Virus record (IMG/VR): IMGVR_UViG_3300015206_000157 | Location: 1-49,585 of that record | Reading direction: 5' to 3' (one strand) | DNA length: 49,585 nucleotides | Source: a virus | In this document: positions 3,392-49,585 of the stretch, one piece after another | How positions within the stretch are numbered: the first letter of the stretch is position 1 | Layout: the number at the start of each line of letters is the position of its first letter | Notes under the pieces: generated by a model | The model's database searches: none | The model's input: the letters and a program-made list of their open reading frames with translations, nothing else | Told to the model about the DNA's origin: nothing | Translations under genes and position numbers: made by a program

Positions 3392-3639
3392 GGTTTCACC
3401 GCGTAGATGCTGAGTTCGAACTTCCCGTTGTCGCTGGGCACGGCGACCAGCGCATGCCCCAACTTTCGCGCGGTCCTGCAGATCGCGTGCGACACGTCGC
3501 TCACCATGACGGTGGCGACGTTCACGCCGCCGATGTACTCGCGCGCCCAGGCGCTGGCGTTTAGTTCATCGCGCCGCTCAAGCTCCGCGACACGCTTGCG
3601 CAGCTGGCGGGCCTCGCGCTGGGATATTTTCTTGCTCAA
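3388..3639 (-). CDS. Small coiled-coil hypothetical protein
   Basis: About 83 residues from a TTG start (LSKKISQREARQLRKRVAEL...). Residues 5-30 form a likely coiled coil; the rest (VATVMVSDVSHAICRTARKLG..) is a compact mixed fold. The TTG overlaps the stop of the helicase-methylase gene (TTGA) and has GGAG 8 bases upstream, which decides the start against longer frames running into that gene. Function unknown. Confidence 0.55.
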   Translation of the reverse strand: MSKKISQREARQLRKRVAELERRDELNASAWAREYIGGVNVATVMVSDVSHAICRTARKLGHALVAVPSDNGKFELSIYAVKP

Positions 3640-6185
3640 GATGCGTTCTCCAATGCAAACAAGTCGGGCATGGCCATTTCCTGAGCTGCGGCGTGGCAAT
3701 ACGCCGCGCCGTCCAGGAAGTAGCGATGTGAAAGCTCGATGCCGATCCCCTGGCGCTTTTGCAGGATCGCCCGGTACGGCACGGTGCAAAGGCCCGCAAA
3801 CGGATCCAGAACGGTCTCGCCGGGCATGCTGAACTGCGCTATGACGCGATCGGCAATGTCGAACTGCATCGGGCATAGGTGCATTTCGCGGCCCTTCGCC
3901 GACTGCGCGCCGTTGAGGGTAAGCATGCGCGTGATGTCGCTCCAAACGTCCGCGTGCCAGGATGGCGGCTGCAGGAGCATGAAGGTCACCGGGAGAATCC
4001 CGCGCGCCTCCAAGGCCTCGCCGAGCTTTACGTGATGCTCGAAGTCATAGACGTTCGTGAGGCTGAATTCGCGGAACATTTTGAAGATCACGTCATGCGG
4101 GACGTTGTCCAGATCCTCGGCGGTGAGCGGCCGGTTACCCGATGAGCGCGTGAACCCGTGGGCATCGATCTGCCATCGCGATCGCGTGTAGGCCGCCTTG
4201 GATTTAACAACCGGCTCATCTGCGTAGCTGTTGACGGTCTCGCTCGGCGGCTTGCGGAACAGCAGCAGATATTCCGGCATCCCGCAGCCCATCTTGGAGC
4301 CGTCTTTGCACTGCTCCGTCCAGCCCAGCCGATAGGTCTGATTGTTCTCGCGCACCACATCGGTGACGATCGTCTTCATGCCCATGTAGGCGAAGCCGTG
4401 CTTGGTGTAGTGCTCGATGCAGCGGGCGTGGAACGGATAGACCGTCTGGAATCCGAGTCCGGTCATTCCGCCCGGAACAATCCGGTCTTTGACGTGAATC
4501 GCGGCTATGCGTCCGGGCTTCAGCGAGCGCAGCAGCTCGGGAGTCAGGAAATCCATCTGCTTGAAAAAATGCTCGTTATTGTCCGAGTGGCCGAAGTCGG
4601 CATAGTTCGGCGAGTACTCGTATTGCGTGGAAAATGGGATGGATGTCAGAAGCAAGTGCACGCTGTTGTCTGGCAGCCGCTTTGTCTCGTCGACGCAGTC
4701 GTTATTGACCAGGCGATAACCGTCCCCGAGTACTTCAACGCGCTCGACTCCGAGCGATCGCGTCAAGGCCTTGGTCATCGCTGCATGCGATAGGCCGTAT
4801 TCCCGAATAATCTCCGTCATCTTTCGCACCATCTCCACGTGTTGTGTCCACTTGCGTTCGAGTTGGCGTCGGATGTCGCGCTCAGCCTCGGTGTAAATCA
4901 GGTCGATGCGCACCGGGTGCGGCTGCAGGAATCGCTGGATCCGATGTATGGCTTGGATAAAGTCGTTGAACTTGAAGCCAATGCCGAGAAAGACGGCCCA
5001 ATGACAGAACCGCTGCAGGTTGCAGCCGCTGCCCAGCAATACCGGCTTGCTGGCGAGTTCCTGAATCTTGCCGTTGCTGAAATCAATGACGATCTGCTCG
5101 CGCTCGTCCAGGTCCTGAGATCCGTACACGCTCACGGATGTCGGAATAGCGGACTCGATCGCCTGCCGCTCGGTCTCTAGGTCGTGCCAGATGATGCGGT
5201 GTGCCGCGGGATCTTCCGCGCGGATCTGCTCCAGCTTCGCTATGCGTGAGGGGAGGCTCTCGCGCTTCTCTTTGGCCGCGTCGGTAACGCCCACTGCCGC
5301 GTTCCGGAAGAGTCGGCCCTGGCCGTCTCGCTCGGCGCCGGCGCCGCTGTGATCACTCGGCACTTCGTGCCACCGAACGTCCAGGGGGGGCAGGTCATAT
5401 CCTGCATCGCTGAACTGCGGGCCCAGGTCGGAAGGTTTGGTGATGAAGAGGGCCCAGGACGAAACCCATAGCCAGAACTCGCGCTCTTTGTGCGGGTGAA
5501 TCGTCAGCTTGTCGGCCTTCTCCGAATTTCGCTTGAAGAACCGAGTTTTGGCAGCCGAGACATCCATGATCCCGAGATATGCCGCATAAGCCAGTAGCTC
5601 GATGTATTCGTTCGGGCTTGGCGTTGCAGTAGCCACGAATCGATACTGGACGCCGCGGCCGCGGACACGCTCGTTGAGCGTTTTCCCGTCACCGGCGAAC
5701 AGCCGCATGAATTCGCGGAAGGTCTTGGTGCCGCCGAAACCCCGAAGACAGGCTGCTTCATCCAGGCTCGCGGCCGCGAAGTGTCGAGGATCCAGTTTGC
5801 CATCGCGCACCGTCTCGTAATTGGTGAGATACACGCCGGTTTCTCCGGCTTCCTCGATAGATCGAATGAACTTCGGAGGTTCCGGCCAGCGGAGAATATC
5901 GACCGCGTCGCGCCGAAACTCCTGACGAACGCCCAGCGGCAGGACAATCAGGCCGCGGCCGCCGGCGCGATCCGCCGCGATCCGGACTACCTCAAGCTGG
6001 ATGACGCTCTTGCCGAGCCCGAACGAAGCGAATAGCGCGCGGCAACCACCGGTCAGCATCCATGGAACGATCGCCCCTTGGTGAGGCAACAGATGCGGAC
6101 TGACATCGTCAGCAGCGATTTCGAACCCGGTGCTGGTGGCAAACGGCACCTTGCGCTCGAGGAATTGGCGGTATGCGTCGTTCAT
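3636..6185 (-). CDS. SNF2-type helicase / DNA methyltransferase fusion
   Basis: An 849-residue two-domain protein. The N-terminal half is a helicase-like ATPase: P-loop ASFGLGKS (53-60), motif II LDEA (141-144), motif III VATATPS (184-190) and motif VI QAIHRIQRFLQ (about 411-421). The C-terminal half (about 490-849) is an amino-methyltransferase of the N6-adenine/N4-cytosine type: LTSIPFS (513-519) replaces the usual xPPY catalytic motif, and DPFAG (794-798) with GIGIEL forms the AdoMet site. The order catalytic-then-AdoMet motif is beta-class-like. Such fusions are widespread in phages and are thought to modify phage DNA against restriction; that role is inferred here. It starts by an ATGA overlap with the truncated DGR reverse transcriptase. 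Confidence 0.85.
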   Translation of the reverse strand: MNDAYRQFLERKVPFATSTGFEIAADDVSPHLLPHQGAIVPWMLTGGCRALFASFGLGKSVIQLEVVRIAADRAGGRGLIVLPLGVRQEFRRDAVDILRWPEPPKFIRSIEEAGETGVYLTNYETVRDGKLDPRHFAAASLDEAACLRGFGGTKTFREFMRLFAGDGKTLNERVRGRGVQYRFVATATPSPNEYIELLAYAAYLGIMDVSAAKTRFFKRNSEKADKLTIHPHKEREFWLWVSSWALFITKPSDLGPQFSDAGYDLPPLDVRWHEVPSDHSGAGAERDGQGRLFRNAAVGVTDAAKEKRESLPSRIAKLEQIRAEDPAAHRIIWHDLETERQAIESAIPTSVSVYGSQDLDEREQIVIDFSNGKIQELASKPVLLGSGCNLQRFCHWAVFLGIGFKFNDFIQAIHRIQRFLQPHPVRIDLIYTEAERDIRRQLERKWTQHVEMVRKMTEIIREYGLSHAAMTKALTRSLGVERVEVLGDGYRLVNNDCVDETKRLPDNSVHLLLTSIPFSTQYEYSPNYADFGHSDNNEHFFKQMDFLTPELLRSLKPGRIAAIHVKDRIVPGGMTGLGFQTVYPFHARCIEHYTKHGFAYMGMKTIVTDVVRENNQTYRLGWTEQCKDGSKMGCGMPEYLLLFRKPPSETVNSYADEPVVKSKAAYTRSRWQIDAHGFTRSSGNRPLTAEDLDNVPHDVIFKMFREFSLTNVYDFEHHVKLGEALEARGILPVTFMLLQPPSWHADVWSDITRMLTLNGAQSAKGREMHLCPMQFDIADRVIAQFSMPGETVLDPFAGLCTVPYRAILQKRQGIGIELSHRYFLDGAAYCHAAAQEMAMPDLFALENAS

Positions 6186-6574
6186 GCCACTTCAAGCCCA
6201 AGTAGGGGGGGGTAGGGCTGCGGCATAGCGCGGCCGGGGATGCAGGCGCAGGAATCCGCTATGAAGGCTCTGTGGAAACGCTCGGAGATGCGGTTGTATA
6301 GAAGGTGATGGGCAATCCGGTCCCGGAAGTTCGCCGCCCATACCTCACGAGGCTTAGGCCTGGTGATGACGAAGCAGATAGACGGGCCCGGGCGGTAAGC
6401 CCCTGATACAAGATCGTCGTACAGTCGAAGCAGGTTGTGCTCAAGATTCTGCTCGAATCCAAGCGCAGACCGCGTGTTGCGCTTGTTCTTGCGGCAATCG
6501 AAATACGCATGCACCAAGTCGGTGAAAGAAAACTCAGCATGGCCGTGCGAAGCATGATCATCTGCGGACAGCAC
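6182..6574 (-). pseudogene. Truncated DGR reverse transcriptase (N-terminal part only)
   Basis: About 130 residues match the beginning of DGR-type reverse transcriptases: FSFTDLVHAYFDCRKNKR, then LYDDLVSGAYRPGPSICFV, RPKPREVWAANFRDRIAHH and IADSCACIPGRA. Family members continue after CIPGRG for some 200-300 residues with the palm and the YxDD site. Here the frame departs into MPQPYPPLLGLEVA and stops, overlapping the next gene as ATGA. No continuation was found in the other frames, so this is a deletion rather than a frameshift. A run of eight C lies near the junction. The start is uncertain: GTG at 6574 lies inside the template repeat, and a TTG at 6517 is the alternative. There are no internal stops, so the loss may be recent. 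Confidence 0.8.
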
Positions 6575-6670
6575 GCGCCCTGATGTGATTGCCCTTGTTC
6601 CAGTTGTTCTGGTTGCCGTTGTTGAAGTTCTGGTTCCAGGCATAGTCGGAGTTCGAGGCGTGCCGCGTTG
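6561..6670 (-). repeat. DGR template repeat (TR)
   Basis: A 110-base template. Read on the minus strand it would encode ASNSDYAWNQNFNNGNQNNW then NKGNHIRARAVRR, rich in AAC/AAT codons, as DGR templates are. Its sense-strand 3' end (23 bases from TCAGGGCGCG to CCGCAGA) is identical to both variable repeats and would be the initiation-of-mutagenic-homology segment. Compared with VR1 there are 16 mismatches over the first 101 + strand bases, and with VR2 16 over 110; every one is at a sense-strand A of the template. It lies between the accessory gene and the reverse transcriptase, the usual place. Confidence 0.95.
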
Positions 6671-6845
6671 GTTTGCGCTATCAACGTCGCCCCACCGAAG
6701 GCCTGTGCCGATCAGTGAAGAAACTGCGCGGGATCGACTCCGGATCGTGGGACGACCGGCGATATCCCTGATGCGCATGGCGGTGGCTTTGGTTGCCAGC
6801 GGCGCAACCAGATTAATCGTCGCACTGACTTGACCGCCGTGACGA

Positions 6846-7196
6846 TCAGGTAGCTGGCGATGCATAGTGCTTTCTCCATGCGTTGGCTTGCTTGCCAACG
6901 CTATCCATGAGTTCAACTGCCTTGGCGTACTGAGGCTTCGAAATGAATCTTTTGTCTTGACAAAGACGCAGAAGCAGTTCGAGTTGACGCACGGCCTGCA
7001 GGACCACATCTAGGAACGGCACCTTGTCGGTCGCGGCATTAGCCTCGGCGATAAGGAGCACGACCTCGATGCAAAGGTCGCAGATGCGGTTGCCTATGGC
7101 TCGGAACGCCCGCGGTATGTTCTGCACATAGTCCGCGGCGACGCTCAGAAGGTCATAGGCAACCTTGTAGATCGGCAATTTGGTATGGATGGCCAT
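6846..7196 (-). CDS. avd: DGR accessory variability determinant (Avd-like four-helix protein)
   Basis: A 116-residue, almost wholly helical protein. It starts MAIHTKLPIYKVAYDLLSVA and contains RICDLCIEVVLLIAEANAAT and AVRQLELLLRLCQDKRFIS. This matches the Avd / 23S-intervening-sequence four-helix-bundle family, which in DGRs forms a basic pentamer that binds the reverse transcriptase and its RNA. It lies directly upstream of the template repeat and downstream of the two targets, as in Bordetella phage BPP-1. Family assignment is by pattern and position. The frame is intact although its partner polymerase is truncated. Confidence 0.85.
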   Translation of the reverse strand: MAIHTKLPIYKVAYDLLSVAADYVQNIPRAFRAIGNRICDLCIEVVLLIAEANAATDKVPFLDVVLQAVRQLELLLRLCQDKRFISKPQYAKAVELMDSVGKQANAWRKHYASPAT

Positions 7197-7220
7197 GCTG
7201 AGAAAAAGGAAATTATTGAA

Positions 7221-7715
7221 TTACTGAATGATCAATCTGCGGACAGCACGCGCCCTGACGTGATTGCCCTTGCCCCAGTTGAACTGGTCGCCGAAGTCGA
7301 AGCCCTGGACCCAGGCATAGTCGGAGGGCGAGGCGAGCTGCTCGCATGACCAGTAATATTCCTGCTTGAAAAGCTCGGGAACGTTTGCGAAGCACAGCGA
7401 CTGTTCTTTGCGAAACGGCAGCGCCAAATCCGCGTGACCGTCGATGATCAGGCCTGCCGACCATTTGCCGGCTGCGGCCCAATCGGTCTGGCCGTCGAAC
7501 TCTGGACCGACAATCAGGTAGTAGTCTGGAGCCAGATCGCGGCCGCGCGCGATTCCGGCGTATACGCCGCCCTGTCCTTCCCATACCTGGCCGATCTGAG
7601 GCGCAACGATTCTCGCCAAATTGATTGGCTTCGTCTCACTGATGCGCTCCAGCGCCATCCGGACAATCTCTGCGTCCGGAATGGTGATGATGATTCCGTT
7701 CTTTGTAACGTTCAT
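7221..7715 (-). CDS. DGR target protein 1, DUF1566/C-type-lectin-like
   Basis: A 164-residue protein. It has an N-terminal helical part (residues 1-45), then GGVYAGIARGRD..YYLIVGPE and a C-terminal YYWSCEQLASPSDYAW block followed by the variable repeat. The end VRARAVRRLIIQ is the constant strand after the variable sites. The fold expected is the DUF1566/Lcl-type C-lectin scaffold used by DGR variable proteins, which display about a dozen variable residues on a binding surface. It shares its scaffold with target 2 but is shorter, lacking most of the middle insert. No signal peptide or membrane anchor is visible. The start has AGGGG upstream. The ligand is unknown. Confidence 0.85.
   Translation of the reverse strand: MNVTKNGIIITIPDAEIVRMALERISETKPINLARIVAPQIGQVWEGQGGVYAGIARGRDLAPDYYLIVGPEFDGQTDWAAAGKWSAGLIIDGHADLALPFRKEQSLCFANVPELFKQEYYWSCEQLASPSDYAWVQGFDFGDQFNWGKGNHVRARAVRRLIIQ
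7236..7338 (-). repeat. DGR variable repeat VR1
   Basis: The 3' end of target gene 1. It aligns without gaps to the template repeat from 6561, with all 16 core differences at template adenines (sense strand). Encoded changes relative to the template include N to P, V, G, D, F and D, and I to V in the segment from ASPSDYAW to GKGNHVRARAVRR. Homology fades beyond the Ala-Ser codons at the 5' side. Confidence 0.95.
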
Positions 7716-7752
7716 TGATGCCCCTAATGGATTTCGGAAAATTGATGAATGA

Positions 7753-8367
7753 CTAAATTGCTAATCTGCGGACAGCACGCGCCCTGAAGTGATAGCCCTT
7801 GCTCCAGTAGCCCTGGCTGCCGGTGCTGAAGTCCTGGGTCCAGGCAGAGTCGGAGGGCGAGGCGGGCCGCGTCGAACTCCAATAGATTTCGTCGGCGAAG
7901 GCCTCTGTGTCGCCAGCGCGGAACAACTCGTTTTCCGTCTGGGCGGGGAGCTCGGCGGTGTACGGATACGTCGGCGGGACCGCGCTCACGTTGATTCCGG
8001 ATCGGCTCCACAGGTAGTTGTTTTCCGTGGTCGGCTTCAGGTACCGGTAGCAGATCTCGAGTTCGTCGAGCGATGGGACGTACCAGTCCGAATATCCATT
8101 GATGGTCAGGTCTTTCGCCCACTTGGCCAGAGCGCTGCCGGCCTCAGCCATCGCCGCGGTGTTGGCTGCACCATCATTCCAGCTCAGCGCGCCGGGGACG
8201 GAGTCATATGACTTCGACCAGGCGCCGGCCTTGCGTTCACCGTCGGCTTTCGGCGCGACAATCAGCGCGTAGAGAATCCCGGCGACCAGGATGCGCCCCG
8301 CATAGAAGCCGCCTTCGAGAGGCGTTCCCGCGATGGAAGGTGGTAAATGAATTGCTGCTGCGTTCAT
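7753..8367 (-). CDS. DGR target protein 2, DUF1566/C-type-lectin-like
   Basis: A 204-residue protein starting MNAAAIHLPPSIAGTPLEGG; the ATG overlaps the upstream stop as ATGA and has AAAGGA upstream. It contains GGFYAGRILVAGILYALIVA, the DUF1566 hallmark LTINGYSDWYVPSLDELEIC, and EIYWSSTRPASPSDSAW leading into the variable repeat, and it ends RARAVRRLAI. This is the fuller version of the scaffold seen in target 1. No secretion signal is visible. It lies in the early leftward operon, not among tail genes, which is unusual for a phage DGR target. Binding partner unknown. Confidence 0.88.
   Translation of the reverse strand: MNAAAIHLPPSIAGTPLEGGFYAGRILVAGILYALIVAPKADGERKAGAWSKSYDSVPGALSWNDGAANTAAMAEAGSALAKWAKDLTINGYSDWYVPSLDELEICYRYLKPTTENNYLWSRSGINVSAVPPTYPYTAELPAQTENELFRAGDTEAFADEIYWSSTRPASPSDSAWTQDFSTGSQGYWSKGYHFRARAVRRLAI
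7765..7874 (-). repeat. DGR variable repeat VR2
   Basis: The 3' end of target gene 2. It aligns gap-free with the template over 110 bases; all 16 differences are at template adenines. Encoded variable residues include S, T, D, S, T, S, G, Y, S, Y and F where the template has N, Y or I. It shares with VR1 the same AAC-to-CCC change near the 5' end (Pro in ASPSD), which may be ancestral rather than newly made. Confidence 0.95.
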
Positions 8368-17362: not shown

Positions 17363-17700
17363 CGGCACCAGACCTAAAGACCGCGACCTATGAAGAGGTG
17401 GTGGCGTTCATCGAATCGTCCCTTATTGCAGGGACAAAGAGCCTCATAGGCAAGCCTTTCAATCCAGGGCCCGACCTAGCCGCGTTTGAGCGGATTCTCC
17501 GCGGTCTGGCGATCAACCCCAATGACCCGATCATTTGCATCAACGGTTTATGGATTGACACCAGAACAATCCGGTTCGATCCGGACAGTTATGCATTGAC
17601 TGTGGATGCAGTGCCCGATCCAGTGCCCGATCCAGACGGGTACCGCTTCATCGTGACGGTCGACGCGACCACAAATAAGGCCACCGTGACGCCCGCATGA
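17359..17700 (+). CDS. Hypothetical protein, 113 residues
   Basis: Helical N-terminus (YEEVVAFIESSLIAGTKSLI), then a beta-rich part (IICINGLWIDTRTIRFDPDS). A short tandem repeat encodes VPDPVPDPD near residue 88. ATGA overlaps at both ends. Unknown function. Confidence 0.6.
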   Translation: MTAPDLKTATYEEVVAFIESSLIAGTKSLIGKPFNPGPDLAAFERILRGLAINPNDPIICINGLWIDTRTIRFDPDSYALTVDAVPDPVPDPDGYRFIVTVDATTNKATVTPA

Positions 17701-18752
17701 GTGCCATCGTCTCCACTGCGGAAATCGATGGGCTGCTTGCCGCTGACTCGCCGGTTGCTATCGGCGTGTCCGGTGGCAAAGACAGCCAGGCTGCCGCGCT
17801 CGCGACATTCGATCATCTGAACGCAATCGGCCATCGAGGGCCGCGCGTCTTGATCCATAGCGATCTCGGTTCTGTCGAGTGGAATGAATCGCTCCCGGTG
17901 TGTCGCCGGCTGGCCGCACACCTGGGCGTCGAACTGATTGTTGTCAGCCGCAAGGCCGGTGGCTTACTCGAGCGCTGGCAATCTCGCTGGCAGTCCAGCG
18001 TTCGCCGTTACGAGAACCTTGAGACCGTGACGCTGGTTCTCCCTTGGTCTACGCCATCGATGCGCTTTTGCACGTCGGAACTGAAAACCCATGTCATCGC
18101 CGCCGAGCTCCGCCGTCGCTTCAAGGGCCAGACCATTGTCAATGTCACCGGCGTCCGACGCGAAGAAAGCGCAGCGCGCGCCAAAGGGTCGATCGCGAGC
18201 CAGGACGCAGATGGCAAGGCGTGGAGCTGGCGGCCTATCTCAGACTGGACGGTCGCCCAAGTATTCGCGCGCATTGCCGCCAGCGGTCTCGCTGCGCACG
18301 AAGCCTATACGCGCTTCAACATGAGCCGCGTCTCCTGCCGCTTCTGCATCATGTCGAATGCCTCAGATATGGCTGCGGCGAGCGCTGCACCTGAATCCCA
18401 TGGCCTTTACCGGCACATGGTCGACATGGAGATCGTAAGCACCTTCGGGTTCCAAGGATCGCGCTGGCTTGCTGATGTCGCGCCACACCTGCTCTCTAAT
18501 TTTGTCCGCGCCGAAGTTGTTCAGGCCAAGCAGCGGGCTGCGCTACGAGTCACGTTAGAAAAGCTGATCACGAGGGACATGCTCTACGTCAAGGGCTGGC
18601 CGACACGCCTGCTGACCAATGCCGAGGCCGCCACGCTGGCAAGAGTACGTAAGGGCGTGAGTGATCTGATAGGGCTCCGATCTCACTATCTGGACGTCGC
18701 GAGCATCCACGGCCGGTACGCCGAACTGATGTCCGAGAAGGCGGCAGCATGA
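17697..18752 (+). CDS. PAPS-reductase-like PP-loop protein
   Basis: 351 residues. The PP-loop SGGKDS (25-30) binds ATP; FCTSELK, GVRREES and CRFCIM are the remaining conserved blocks of phosphoadenosine-phosphosulfate reductase/DndC-like phage proteins. The cysteine pairs could hold a metal or FeS centre. The family activates substrates by adenylation; related DndC takes part in phosphorothioation, but no other dnd genes are visible, so the substrate is unknown. It is followed immediately by the DUF5131 gene (4-base overlap), and the pair may act together. Confidence 0.8.
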   Translation: MSAIVSTAEIDGLLAADSPVAIGVSGGKDSQAAALATFDHLNAIGHRGPRVLIHSDLGSVEWNESLPVCRRLAAHLGVELIVVSRKAGGLLERWQSRWQSSVRRYENLETVTLVLPWSTPSMRFCTSELKTHVIAAELRRRFKGQTIVNVTGVRREESAARAKGSIASQDADGKAWSWRPISDWTVAQVFARIAASGLAAHEAYTRFNMSRVSCRFCIMSNASDMAAASAAPESHGLYRHMVDMEIVSTFGFQGSRWLADVAPHLLSNFVRAEVVQAKQRAALRVTLEKLITRDMLYVKGWPTRLLTNAEAATLARVRKGVSDLIGLRSHYLDVASIHGRYAELMSEKAAA

Positions 18753-28274: not shown

Positions 28275-30047
28275 ATGACGATTTCGGTACTGCAAGAGCG
28301 CCAGGTCGACAACGGCGGCGCCACTACCTCGTTAATCTCGCTTGCCTTTAGTTCCAGCGTCACGACCGCTTCTTCGATCCACGCGGTCGGCATGGGCGTC
28401 GAACCCGCATCCTTTGCGTGTGCCGATACGGCGAACGGCTCGTATGGTGCCGCGCTCGATTTCCTTGACGATACGGACCCCGCTTCTACTGTTTCGATCG
28501 CTCACTTTAAATTCGACGGCAGTGCGGCCGGTGCAAACACCGTCACGATTACGCCGAGCTCCGCTTCAGCGTTTCTTAGCATCTGGATTCGCGAGATCGG
28601 GGGCACGTCGGGTCTCGACACCCATCACGCCCAGATCCAAAACGCCGCTGGCACTTCCACGAATGGCTTAAGCAGCGGGACGGCCACTCCATCAGCCCAA
28701 CCAGGGCTTATTTCCGCTCTGTCTGCGAACGTGGGCAACGGCTCGCCGGCGCCGACAGCCGGGACTGGCTTCACGGCCGGTATTTCCGGGTGGTCGTCCG
28801 GCGCGCAATCCGAGTCCCTGCGCTACACCGCGACATCCGCGATAGCTGCGACCTTCACCGCGAGCTCGGTGGATGACTACATCACGCTCGCGGCCTTCTT
28901 CAAGGAGGCGGGCGGCGGTGGTGGCGGGGTCACCGGCACGCTTGCGGCGAATGACGCGCCCGACACCGCGGCGATCAGTGGCGCGAGCAGCGTCTCGGGA
29001 ACCGTATCCGCCTCTGACGGCCAAGATACGCTCTCGGCATCTGGCGCGCTCCGGGTCAGCGGAGCTGTAACGGCGACAGACGCCTCTGATGTAGCGTCCA
29101 TCGCTGGCGCGGTGAGTGGCAATGACAGCGGCACGGCTACGATGGCCGACGCTCAGGACGCCTTTGCAGCCAGCGGCAGCGTGACCGATAGCGGCAGCGT
29201 CGCGGCGACTGACGCCAACGACACCGTGGCGATATTGGGATCGACGAAGGTCACCGGCACCGCGCCAATGGCGGACGGCCAGGACCATGCGTCGATTAGT
29301 GGGGCTGTCACCGACACGGGAACGGCACCGATTGCCGATGCCCAAGACACCGCGGCGATCAGTGGCACGGTCACTGACGCCGGAACGGTAGCGGCGGCAG
29401 ACGCGCAGGACAGCTTCGCCGCTTCAGGTTCTGTTGCCGGGTCGATAGCCGGAACTGTGGCGGCTACCGATGCGACAGACACGTTTGCAGTTACGGGCGC
29501 TCTCGCAGATCCCGGCAGCGTTGGCGCAACCGACGCGCCCGATGCGATGGCGCTTTCAGGCGCGGTCACCGATTCAGGCTCTGCACCGATTGCGGATGCG
29601 CAGGATGTTGCAAACATCGCGGGCAATGTCGGTGGTGGTGGCGTTGTTTCCGCCATTGATGCGCCGGACACGTTCAGCGCGTCCGGCTCAACCAAGATCA
29701 GCGGCATGGTTGCCGCGCAAGACGCTCAGGATCTGGCAAGCGTCGCTGGATCCGTCACGGATACGGGCGTTGCCAGCATCCATGATGCGCAAGACGTCGC
29801 CGAGATTTCAGGGTCTGCGACGCCGACGATCGCGGGTAACCTATCGGCGACCGATGCACCCGACCCCATGCTCGCCACTGGTGGCATGTCGGATTCTGGT
29901 TCGGTAGCCGCAACGGAGGCACCAGATTTGGTGTCGATAGCTGGAACTGCCGGCATTGTGATGCCGCACTTCCTCATCGAGGCGACCTTCCAAGACCGGC
30001 TCATCGAGGCGACCTTCCAAGACCGGCTCATTACTGGGTACCACTGA
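28275..30047 (+). CDS. Large repetitive Ala/Asp/Ser-rich structural protein
   Basis: 590 residues. The N-terminal domain (1-212) is beta-rich and non-repetitive. From about residue 217 there are some 16 imperfect repeats of 20-24 residues with the core G-x-V-x-A-x-D-A-x-D-x-x-x-x-S-G-x-V-x-D, as in GTVAATDATDTFAVTGALAD. The regular Asp pairs could bind calcium. The C-terminus carries an exact duplication of LIEATFQDR. Repeats of this kind occur in phage structural or fibre-like proteins; its place next to terminase rather than tail genes is notable. Confidence 0.65.
   Translation: MTISVLQERQVDNGGATTSLISLAFSSSVTTASSIHAVGMGVEPASFACADTANGSYGAALDFLDDTDPASTVSIAHFKFDGSAAGANTVTITPSSASAFLSIWIREIGGTSGLDTHHAQIQNAAGTSTNGLSSGTATPSAQPGLISALSANVGNGSPAPTAGTGFTAGISGWSSGAQSESLRYTATSAIAATFTASSVDDYITLAAFFKEAGGGGGGVTGTLAANDAPDTAAISGASSVSGTVSASDGQDTLSASGALRVSGAVTATDASDVASIAGAVSGNDSGTATMADAQDAFAASGSVTDSGSVAATDANDTVAILGSTKVTGTAPMADGQDHASISGAVTDTGTAPIADAQDTAAISGTVTDAGTVAAADAQDSFAASGSVAGSIAGTVAATDATDTFAVTGALADPGSVGATDAPDAMALSGAVTDSGSAPIADAQDVANIAGNVGGGGVVSAIDAPDTFSASGSTKISGMVAAQDAQDLASVAGSVTDTGVASIHDAQDVAEISGSATPTIAGNLSATDAPDPMLATGGMSDSGSVAATEAPDLVSIAGTAGIVMPHFLIEATFQDRLIEATFQDRLITGYH
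29973..30026 (+). repeat. Perfect 27-base tandem duplication
   Basis: Two identical 27-base units in direct succession encode LIEATFQDR twice at the C-terminus of the repetitive protein. Identity to the base, where the upstream repeats are diverged, indicates a recent slippage or duplication event. Confidence 0.9.
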
Positions 30048-47581: not shown

Positions 47582-49585
47582 GTGGGTCGCATCCTCCTAA
47601 ACGATCCTGCGCACGCGGGAGGCTCAGACGAGATCAATAACGGCACGAGCGTAGGCGACAACACGGGCGATACGGCGTTTTTGACCGGCGCGAAGCTCAA
47701 AACCAACCTAGCCGACATCAACACGATGTCTGCCGAGCTGTACGGCCGGATTTTCAACGAGATCATGATTCCACCCTCTGGCGACACGTCCGGAGCCACG
47801 GATACGGCGAACCTTGCGGCGTACTTTGCCCTGGCGGCTGGATCAACGCGAAGCTCAGCTGGGCTATCTGGGGCGATCGGCGCAACGAGCTGTTTGCTTG
47901 GGAACGGTGATTACTGGCTCAACAATAATGTGCTGAACGGCACGCCCGCCTTCAAGGCAGCCGGAATAAAGCTCTACGGCAGAGGGCCAAACAAGACCGC
48001 GGTGCATTACACGCCGACTACCCCGGGAACGCCGCTGATCACCAATAAGCGGTGGCTAAATTTCGAGATGCAAGACATATCGTTCATAGGCAACGATGCG
48101 ACGGCAGACTTTTTCCAGAGCCTGGAGCAGGGCGGCTTCACCAACATCCAGGACAACCTTTTCGCCAACATCCAATGGATAGGTGCATGGCAGAGCCTGT
48201 TTCTGTTTTGCGGCGGAAATAACAACTCAGAGAATGCATGGCGGGATTGCGAGGCATCCGGTAACGGCGGATCGGTAGCCAATTGGCTCTATATCCCCGG
48301 CCCGCAGACCGCGACGATGACAAGCGGCAACGCGAATCTGTCGATGATGAACATCAACGGCGCCTGCCCGGTCGGCACAACCATCGAATTTGCGACGACC
48401 ATCGGCACCGGTTCAGGTCAGATCACGGCCGCGACAACTTACTTTGTGGTGGCATCTGTCACTGGATCACCCGGAACAATCCAGGTATCCGCAACCGCTG
48501 GCGGACCCGCCATTACCCCGAACGCAAGCGGTACTTCAGTCGCAACCTGGACATCAGATCAATTCCTAAACTACTGGTGGACCGGCAAGAGCAAGTTCAC
48601 CTCTCAGGGCGGCGCGTGGATCAACGCCGGAATGGGCGGCAGTTTCAGCATTCGCGACGCTGACATATCGGCGAATTCGCCTTCCGTAGCCACGTATCTG
48701 TTCAATCTGCTCGGCGCCACCCACTCAAACGGCGTTTGTAGCTTCAATGTCGACAAGCTGCGTATCGAGCACTCGACGAACAGCTCGCTGCTCCTGCACA
48801 GCCAGTGGCCTCAAGGCAACGTCGTCTTTCGCAACTTGGATCAAAGCTCGCAGGCGGGAAATCGGCCGATCACACAGAACTATGTTCTGGTAGATCGCGT
48901 CAATACCGCTGGCGCCATCATCAGGTTCGAAGATTCGCAGCTTCTAGGCACTCACACCTATACCTGCAACAGCTCGGATAACCTCCATCAGTCCAAAGCG
49001 ATCTACGACGGTTGCACGCTGATCGATAATCCATCGGTTGCTGATTTCATGCTCAATAGCCTGATAGGGAACTCGGGCGGCTTTGTTGACGCGCATTTCA
49101 AAAATTGCCGAAACACGTTGAGCGAGTCCATCGTCGGCTATCGCGAAGTGGTCGATTCTGATCCGAACGCCTGGCAGACCGCTGGCGGCACGGCCGAGCG
49201 CCACGGCTTTCAGATGCTCAGTTCGAGCAGCGACTGGCCCTCTGCCGGCGGCAACTTCCATATCCGTATTCCGCGGCTCGCCACGATTGTCCAAGTCACC
49301 TTCATCAAGAGGGCCGGAAGCGGCAATAGCGGGGCATTTCAGTACACGCTTCAGACCAATGAGGCGACGCCGACCGTGCTGGCTGGCGGCGCCTCGACGC
49401 CCATGGCTGGCGCGAATGCCGGAACCTCGACGCTGGTGCAGACCGGATCACCGGCGTATGTCGTGAATCCTTACTTCTTTGCGAACACCGATCTGGCGCG
49501 AGAATTGGTGTTGGTCGACTCCCTGTCAGGCGGGCGCTCGGGGATTTTTACCGGCGTCTTCTGCCTGGTCGAATACATCGGGTGA
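47582..49585 (+). CDS. Tail fibre / tailspike with beta-helix character
   Basis: 667 residues from GTG. The N-terminal segment (GGSDEINNGTSVGDNTGDTA, FLTGAKLKTNLADINTMSAE) is an attachment region. The centre has the irregular right-handed beta-helix look of tailspikes (SFIGNDATADFFQSLEQ, AWRDCEASGNGGSVANW, IRDADISANSPSVATYLF, VVFRNLDQSSQ). The C-terminal 110 residues form a separate beta domain (HIRIPRLATIVQVTFIKRAG). Receptor binding or depolymerase activity is expected but unproven. The window ends on its stop codon. Confidence 0.8.
   Translation: MGRILLNDPAHAGGSDEINNGTSVGDNTGDTAFLTGAKLKTNLADINTMSAELYGRIFNEIMIPPSGDTSGATDTANLAAYFALAAGSTRSSAGLSGAIGATSCLLGNGDYWLNNNVLNGTPAFKAAGIKLYGRGPNKTAVHYTPTTPGTPLITNKRWLNFEMQDISFIGNDATADFFQSLEQGGFTNIQDNLFANIQWIGAWQSLFLFCGGNNNSENAWRDCEASGNGGSVANWLYIPGPQTATMTSGNANLSMMNINGACPVGTTIEFATTIGTGSGQITAATTYFVVASVTGSPGTIQVSATAGGPAITPNASGTSVATWTSDQFLNYWWTGKSKFTSQGGAWINAGMGGSFSIRDADISANSPSVATYLFNLLGATHSNGVCSFNVDKLRIEHSTNSSLLLHSQWPQGNVVFRNLDQSSQAGNRPITQNYVLVDRVNTAGAIIRFEDSQLLGTHTYTCNSSDNLHQSKAIYDGCTLIDNPSVADFMLNSLIGNSGGFVDAHFKNCRNTLSESIVGYREVVDSDPNAWQTAGGTAERHGFQMLSSSSDWPSAGGNFHIRIPRLATIVQVTFIKRAGSGNSGAFQYTLQTNEATPTVLAGGASTPMAGANAGTSTLVQTGSPAYVVNPYFFANTDLARELVLVDSLSGGRSGIFTGVFCLVEYIG

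Follow-up and report, generated by a model that had tools for sequence, protein, structure and literature searches.

Does a phage cassette whose target genes carry the signature of a diversity-generating retroelement (DGR) still encode the reverse transcriptase (RT) that would have written it? The DNA analysed here (the window) is a linear 49.6-kb fragment, positions 1 to 49,585 of virus record IMGVR_UViG_3300015206_000157. It contains genes for a tail sheath, portal, major head protein, terminase and integrase, and by gene content the phage is putatively a temperate myovirus. Elsewhere in the window, positions 17697-18752 hold a phosphoadenosine phosphosulfate reductase-like gene, a phage-carried auxiliary metabolic gene, and two long frames at 28275-30047 (590 aa) and 47582-49585 (667 aa, at the contig end) have no PHROG match at 0.001.

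The original prediction described the locus as a DGR with one template and two variable target genes. All elements of the cassette are read on the minus strand, where target 2 with its variable repeat (VR2) is followed by target 1 with VR1, avd, the RT-15 RNA, the template repeat (TR) and an RT frame that stops at 6182:

7753-8367, minus strand: target gene 2 (204 aa; DUF1566/Lcl_C, C-type-lectin-like fold), with VR2 at its 3′ end
7765-7874, minus strand: VR2, differing from TR at 16 of 110 bp, each a TR adenine
7221-7715, minus strand: target gene 1 (164 aa; Lcl_C-like), with VR1 at its 3′ end
7236-7338, minus strand: VR1, differing from TR at 16 positions, each a TR adenine
6846-7196, minus strand: avd (116 aa), with Pfam bAvd and PHROG matches
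6666-6862, minus strand: RT-15 structured RNA (Rfam RF03018), the 5′ part of the template RNA
6561-6670, minus strand: TR, aligned gap-free to VR1 and VR2
6227-6565, minus strand: RT remnant, the N-terminal ~113 residues of a DGR reverse transcriptase (phrog_1423, RT of relative L004, lineage profile)
6182-6226, minus strand: 14-codon tail without RT homology plus stop codon, from the translation; the stop overlaps the next start (ATGA)
3636-6185, minus strand: helicase/N6-N4 methylase gene joined to the RT stub (phrog_16, Pfam N6_N4_Mtase)

The repeat structure proposed for the locus was borne out. TR aligned without gaps to VR1 and VR2 at the places where the repeats had been reported, and blastn recovered the three copies independently. 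Over the cores originally compared, each repeat differed from TR at 16 positions, every one a template adenine, and the printed alignment of the 110-bp VR2 span again showed 16 mismatches confined to A. In the 102-bp gap-free core ending ...GTCCGCAGA (TR 6561-6662, VR1 7236-7337, VR2 7765-7866), VR1 carried 16 mismatches and VR2 15, and all 31 fell at TR adenines. Adenine makes up 32 of the 102 core positions in TR; none of the 70 others was altered in either repeat, in agreement with the claim that no C, G or T of the template had changed. Were mismatches placed at random, the probability of all of them falling on A would be 3e-10 for VR1 and 1.6e-9 for VR2. The window thus contains the kind of TR/VR pair, differing almost only at TR adenines, that characterizes a DGR.

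Two further DGR components lie upstream of TR. The Avd-like gene said to flank the template was confirmed by matches to Pfam bAvd (4.6e-14, above cut-off) and to the PHROG family 'Avd protein of DGR' (phrog_3206, 1e-26). Between avd and TR is a part that had not been named, a structured template RNA of the RT-15 family, for which RF03018 scored 167.4 bits against a gathering score of 82 with the model complete (1-192). This RNA occupies the same place in related loci L004, L259, L079 and L288 and in phage Cruim01.

Target 2 matched Pfam Lcl_C above cut-off (2.5e-11), and the best solved match to its predicted model (mean pLDDT 94.5) was the C-terminal domain of Legionella Lcl (Z 12.7, 2.7 Å, 123 residues); the score against the Treponema denticola DGR target TvpA was lower (Z 6.2) and not above background. 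A C-type-lectin-like variable domain was thus found for target 2; for target 1 the sole indication was an Lcl_C match (0.0015) that fell short of the curated cut-off. Target 1 also matched phrog_4245 (4.9e-13) and is 66% identical to the syntenic L004 gene. DUF1566 has been reported as the most common Pfam domain in DGR targets (PMC6642488). Because the cassette adjoins early genes (ERF-like, Ref-like nuclease) and lies outside the tail module, both targets are probably not tail fibres; our guess at their role is a phage-encoded lectin-like protein working in or on the lysogen. In the prototype DGR, that of Bordetella phage BPP-1, the RT is intact and the target is a tail fibre. This DGR resembles the window in TR, VR, Avd, adenine mutagenesis and a C-type-lectin-like target, whereas in the window the targets stand among early genes and the RT is truncated.

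This truncation is where the original prediction needed amending. An 'RT start' had been noted beside the template, and an RT N-terminus is indeed present, but it covers ~113 residues only and is not the start of an intact gene. The stub matched phrog_1423 (8.3e-37 over ~101 residues) and is 84% identical to the intact RT of L004. Its homology to viral-contig relatives ends at residue 113-114 of the 127-residue query, the exceptions being one distant match that reaches 121 and one at a contig end. Relatives with sufficiently long contigs have RTs of 340-405 residues, typically about 360-370, nearly all with a recognisable YxDD. A lineage-specific profile built from 24 intact RTs (367 positions) aligned to the window at profile positions 2-104 only; searched without filters, it revealed no second RT piece in the 49.6-kb record, and PF00078 gave no RT match there. 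The stub lacks any catalytic motif, with no YxDD, and the last 14 codons of its frame are unrelated to RT and end on the ATGA common to the start of the helicase/methylase gene (phrog_16, 1e-115; Pfam N6_N4_Mtase, 1.4e-11). With a stub alone and nothing elsewhere in the record, a functional DGR-type RT is absent, and the element has the form of an RT-less DGR remnant, in which targets bear the VR signature, within a record that is a linear fragment. The predicted arrangement of one template and two variable targets therefore stands for TR, both VRs, Avd and the A-only differences, but the unqualified name DGR does not, the RT being truncated.

We favour a reading, with a probability of roughly 0.78, in which a phage DGR of the RT-15/Avd/DUF1566 lineage was functional up to a recent loss of the final two thirds of its RT gene. 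While active, the RT together with Avd would have copied the TR RNA, miscopying adenines, and the cDNA would then have replaced the VR ends of the two lectin-like target genes. A deletion or recombination would later have fused RT codon ~113 to the bases immediately preceding the helicase gene. L259 carries a DGR ahead of this helicase, in the order VR-VR-Avd-RT-124 aa-C5 methylase-helicase, and there the helicase likewise starts within the stop codon of the gene before it; from such an arrangement the event would have removed the RT beyond that codon, together with some of the genes in between. L259, with an intact RT, is the one clear case among the contigs of a helicase relative with a DGR. 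The exact deletion is conjectural, no source having been found for the 14-codon tail. Since the break the cassette would not have rewritten its targets by itself, leaving one fixed version of each unless a related RT acts in trans. The cassette is an RT-decapitated DGR, probably dead or non-autonomous, and both randomised target genes are probably now frozen.

The nearest relative, L004 (IMG/VR 3300044515_000086), is syntenic with an intact RT and bears on the timing of these events. Between its TR and that of the window, 14 core positions differ. Twelve of these have a base other than A in the window TR, and at every one both window VRs match that base; likewise, wherever the L004 TR has a base other than A at a differing position, both L004 VRs match it. 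The presence of own-TR letters at non-A sites shows that mutagenic homing postdates the split, the VRs of each lineage having been rewritten from the TR beside them. Non-A differences between TR and the VRs number 0 of 140, which by the rule of three limits post-loss drift to below about 2%; so little drift points to a recent loss of the RT. Estimates of dN/dS against L004, rough because dS is near saturation, were about 0.07 for the RT stub, 0.19 for Avd and about 0.15 for the constant parts of the targets. An HNH-like gene follows the RT in L004, unlike in the window, and the flanking genes of the cassette lineage are therefore mosaic.

The main rival is a chimeric assembly, in which the contig would be wrongly joined at about 6185-6227 and the real phage would have a full RT like that of L004. 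The source is a metagenome record, a linear fragment, and a run of 8 G lies close to the join. Moreover, among close relatives recovered with the stub, every one whose sequence extends far enough has a full RT, and a 20-mer search, from which near-identical records may have been withheld, found no further contig carrying the RT-helicase junction of the window. One contig, L321, was considered as a second instance of the junction and rejected; apart from its single 20-mer match it shows no DNA similarity to the window, and its protein match at that position is short and marginal. Nevertheless, the reading frame stays open across the join and meets the helicase in a precise ATGA overlap, L259 naturally has a DGR upstream of the same helicase, and similar RT loss is found in a cultured genome (L288) and in two complete isolate phages. 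On this evidence we consider an artefact unlikely, though an intact RT allele may exist elsewhere in the population.

These parallel losses come from both viral and bacterial loci. Among 99 evaluable Avd-bearing relatives, counted from similarity searches and so not independent draws, 95 have a full RT, three lack most of it and one is split. Viral Avd loci with at least 1.8 kb beyond Avd number 75 (72 with full RT, one split, two lost), and the RT is intact at 23 of 24 bacterial-genome Avd loci, a count that leaves out the weak distant match L301. The split RT (L054, 1688-3080) consists of two overlapping frames covering profile positions 1-258 and 266-361, the result of a frameshift or sequencing error. 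In L079 (3575-5864) the RT ends after 69 profile positions, while the RT-15 RNA, Avd, TR and four VRs are kept, with one non-A change among the four VRs. In L091 (6345-7023) a NUMOD4-HNH gene stands in place of TR and RT, leaving the last ~47 RT residues. The bacterial exception is L288, the cultured Trinickia mobilis DHG64 (5337-6630): it retains intact targets, Avd and RT-15 RNA, TR and RT have given way to two genes, one small and the other for a PNKP-like phosphatase, an RT tail remains, and the genome has no RVT_1 match at all. A census of the RT-15 RNA across about 790 genomes from two orders returned 11 matches above cut-off. Ten of these have a full RT, and the remaining one is the Trinickia locus around which the census was centred; RT loss is therefore uncommon in that sample. 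No plasmid relatives were found. DUF1566 loci without RT (L127-L192) were also considered as DGR relics. A second VR copy was present in four of the 44 VR2-type loci tested, three of these with a clear A-only TR; the remaining loci look like the wider DUF1566 family and were set aside.

The two isolates are Pseudomonas phages related to Cruim01, a complete phage genome with a full DGR. Aurca01 (L273, PP179334.1, 5549-6130) and Medea1 (L275, MW862109.1), likewise complete genomes, have kept both DUF1566 targets. Homology to Cruim01 extends to the 3′ end of VR2 and resumes near the RT 3′ end, and a 163-164-aa NUMOD4-HNH gene occupies the stretch that in Cruim01 contains Avd, TR and most of the RT; no RT was detected elsewhere in either genome. 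Outside the altered 3′ end of VR2, their VRs show 12-18 adenine differences from the Cruim01 TR, and the sole non-A exception there is one T change in Medea1 VR2. Because the HNH genes of Aurca01 and Medea1 are identical, their losses may go back to a single event. Between Aurca01 and L091 the HNH proteins share 46% identity, and DGR cores may have been displaced repeatedly by HNH genes. The main text of the paper on Cruim01 and Aurca01 makes no mention of reverse transcriptase or diversity-generating elements (PMC11256456).

It could also be argued that the truncated cassette is still in use, its RT supplied in trans by a co-resident phage or prophage. TR, the RT-15 RNA, Avd and the VR 3′ ends are intact, zero non-A differences have accumulated, and intact relatives with a close TR layout and an RT exist. 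However, a merely recent break predicts the same pattern, the parallel Trinickia genome has no RVT_1 match and so no RT supplier, and TR is gone in L091, L288, Aurca01 and Medea1. We find continued use distinctly doubtful, and would give as little credence to the broader proposal that RT-stub cassettes (the window and L079) are non-autonomous DGRs borrowing the RT of co-infecting or co-resident relatives, much as non-autonomous transposons borrow a transposase. Finally, it is very improbable that the stub is a selected small protein, such as an Avd- or RNA-binding module retained after truncation, since despite the preserved open frame and the stop overlapping the helicase start, its low dN/dS reflects a long time before truncation and no other relative with the same stub was found among its homologues.

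L004 and Cruim01 share with the window two DUF1566 targets, Avd, the RT-15 RNA, TR, the order of these parts and A-only differences, but encode a full-length RT with YxDD where that of the window ends after ~113 residues. Aurca01 and Medea1 have the same two DUF1566 targets, early-gene setting and near A-only VRs, but Avd, TR and the greater part of the RT are gone from them, and the NUMOD4-HNH gene is there instead. Isolates of Treponema denticola have been reported to carry target genes without RT and TR (PMC4891356), and cyanobacteria to contain degraded cassettes and remnants of TR-VR homology (PMC7517822). Such remnants resemble the window in keeping the VR signature in the targets with the RT absent; in them, however, RT and TR are wholly absent, or the RT alone is left, whereas TR, RNA, Avd and the RT N-terminus are still there in the window. 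RT-less DGRs are thus an already known kind, of which the window is a variant, an otherwise complete cassette cut only in the RT. A limited search of the literature found no description of such a case.

In the global DGR survey, a candidate had to have an imperfect repeat close to an RT gene of 250-550 aa, a range later set to 150-650 aa (PMC8144416). Because surveys of this type take as their starting point a repeat beside an RT that reaches a minimum length, cassettes that lack the RT but are otherwise complete are mostly missed. The combination of Avd, RT-15 RNA and VR signature provides a way to count them, and the window cassette offers a natural test of DGR function with the RT in trans. 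Taken together, the window, L079, L091, L288, Aurca01 and Medea1 suggest that phages repeatedly shed the mutator yet keep the diversified lectin-like proteins, such that a good variant can be fixed.
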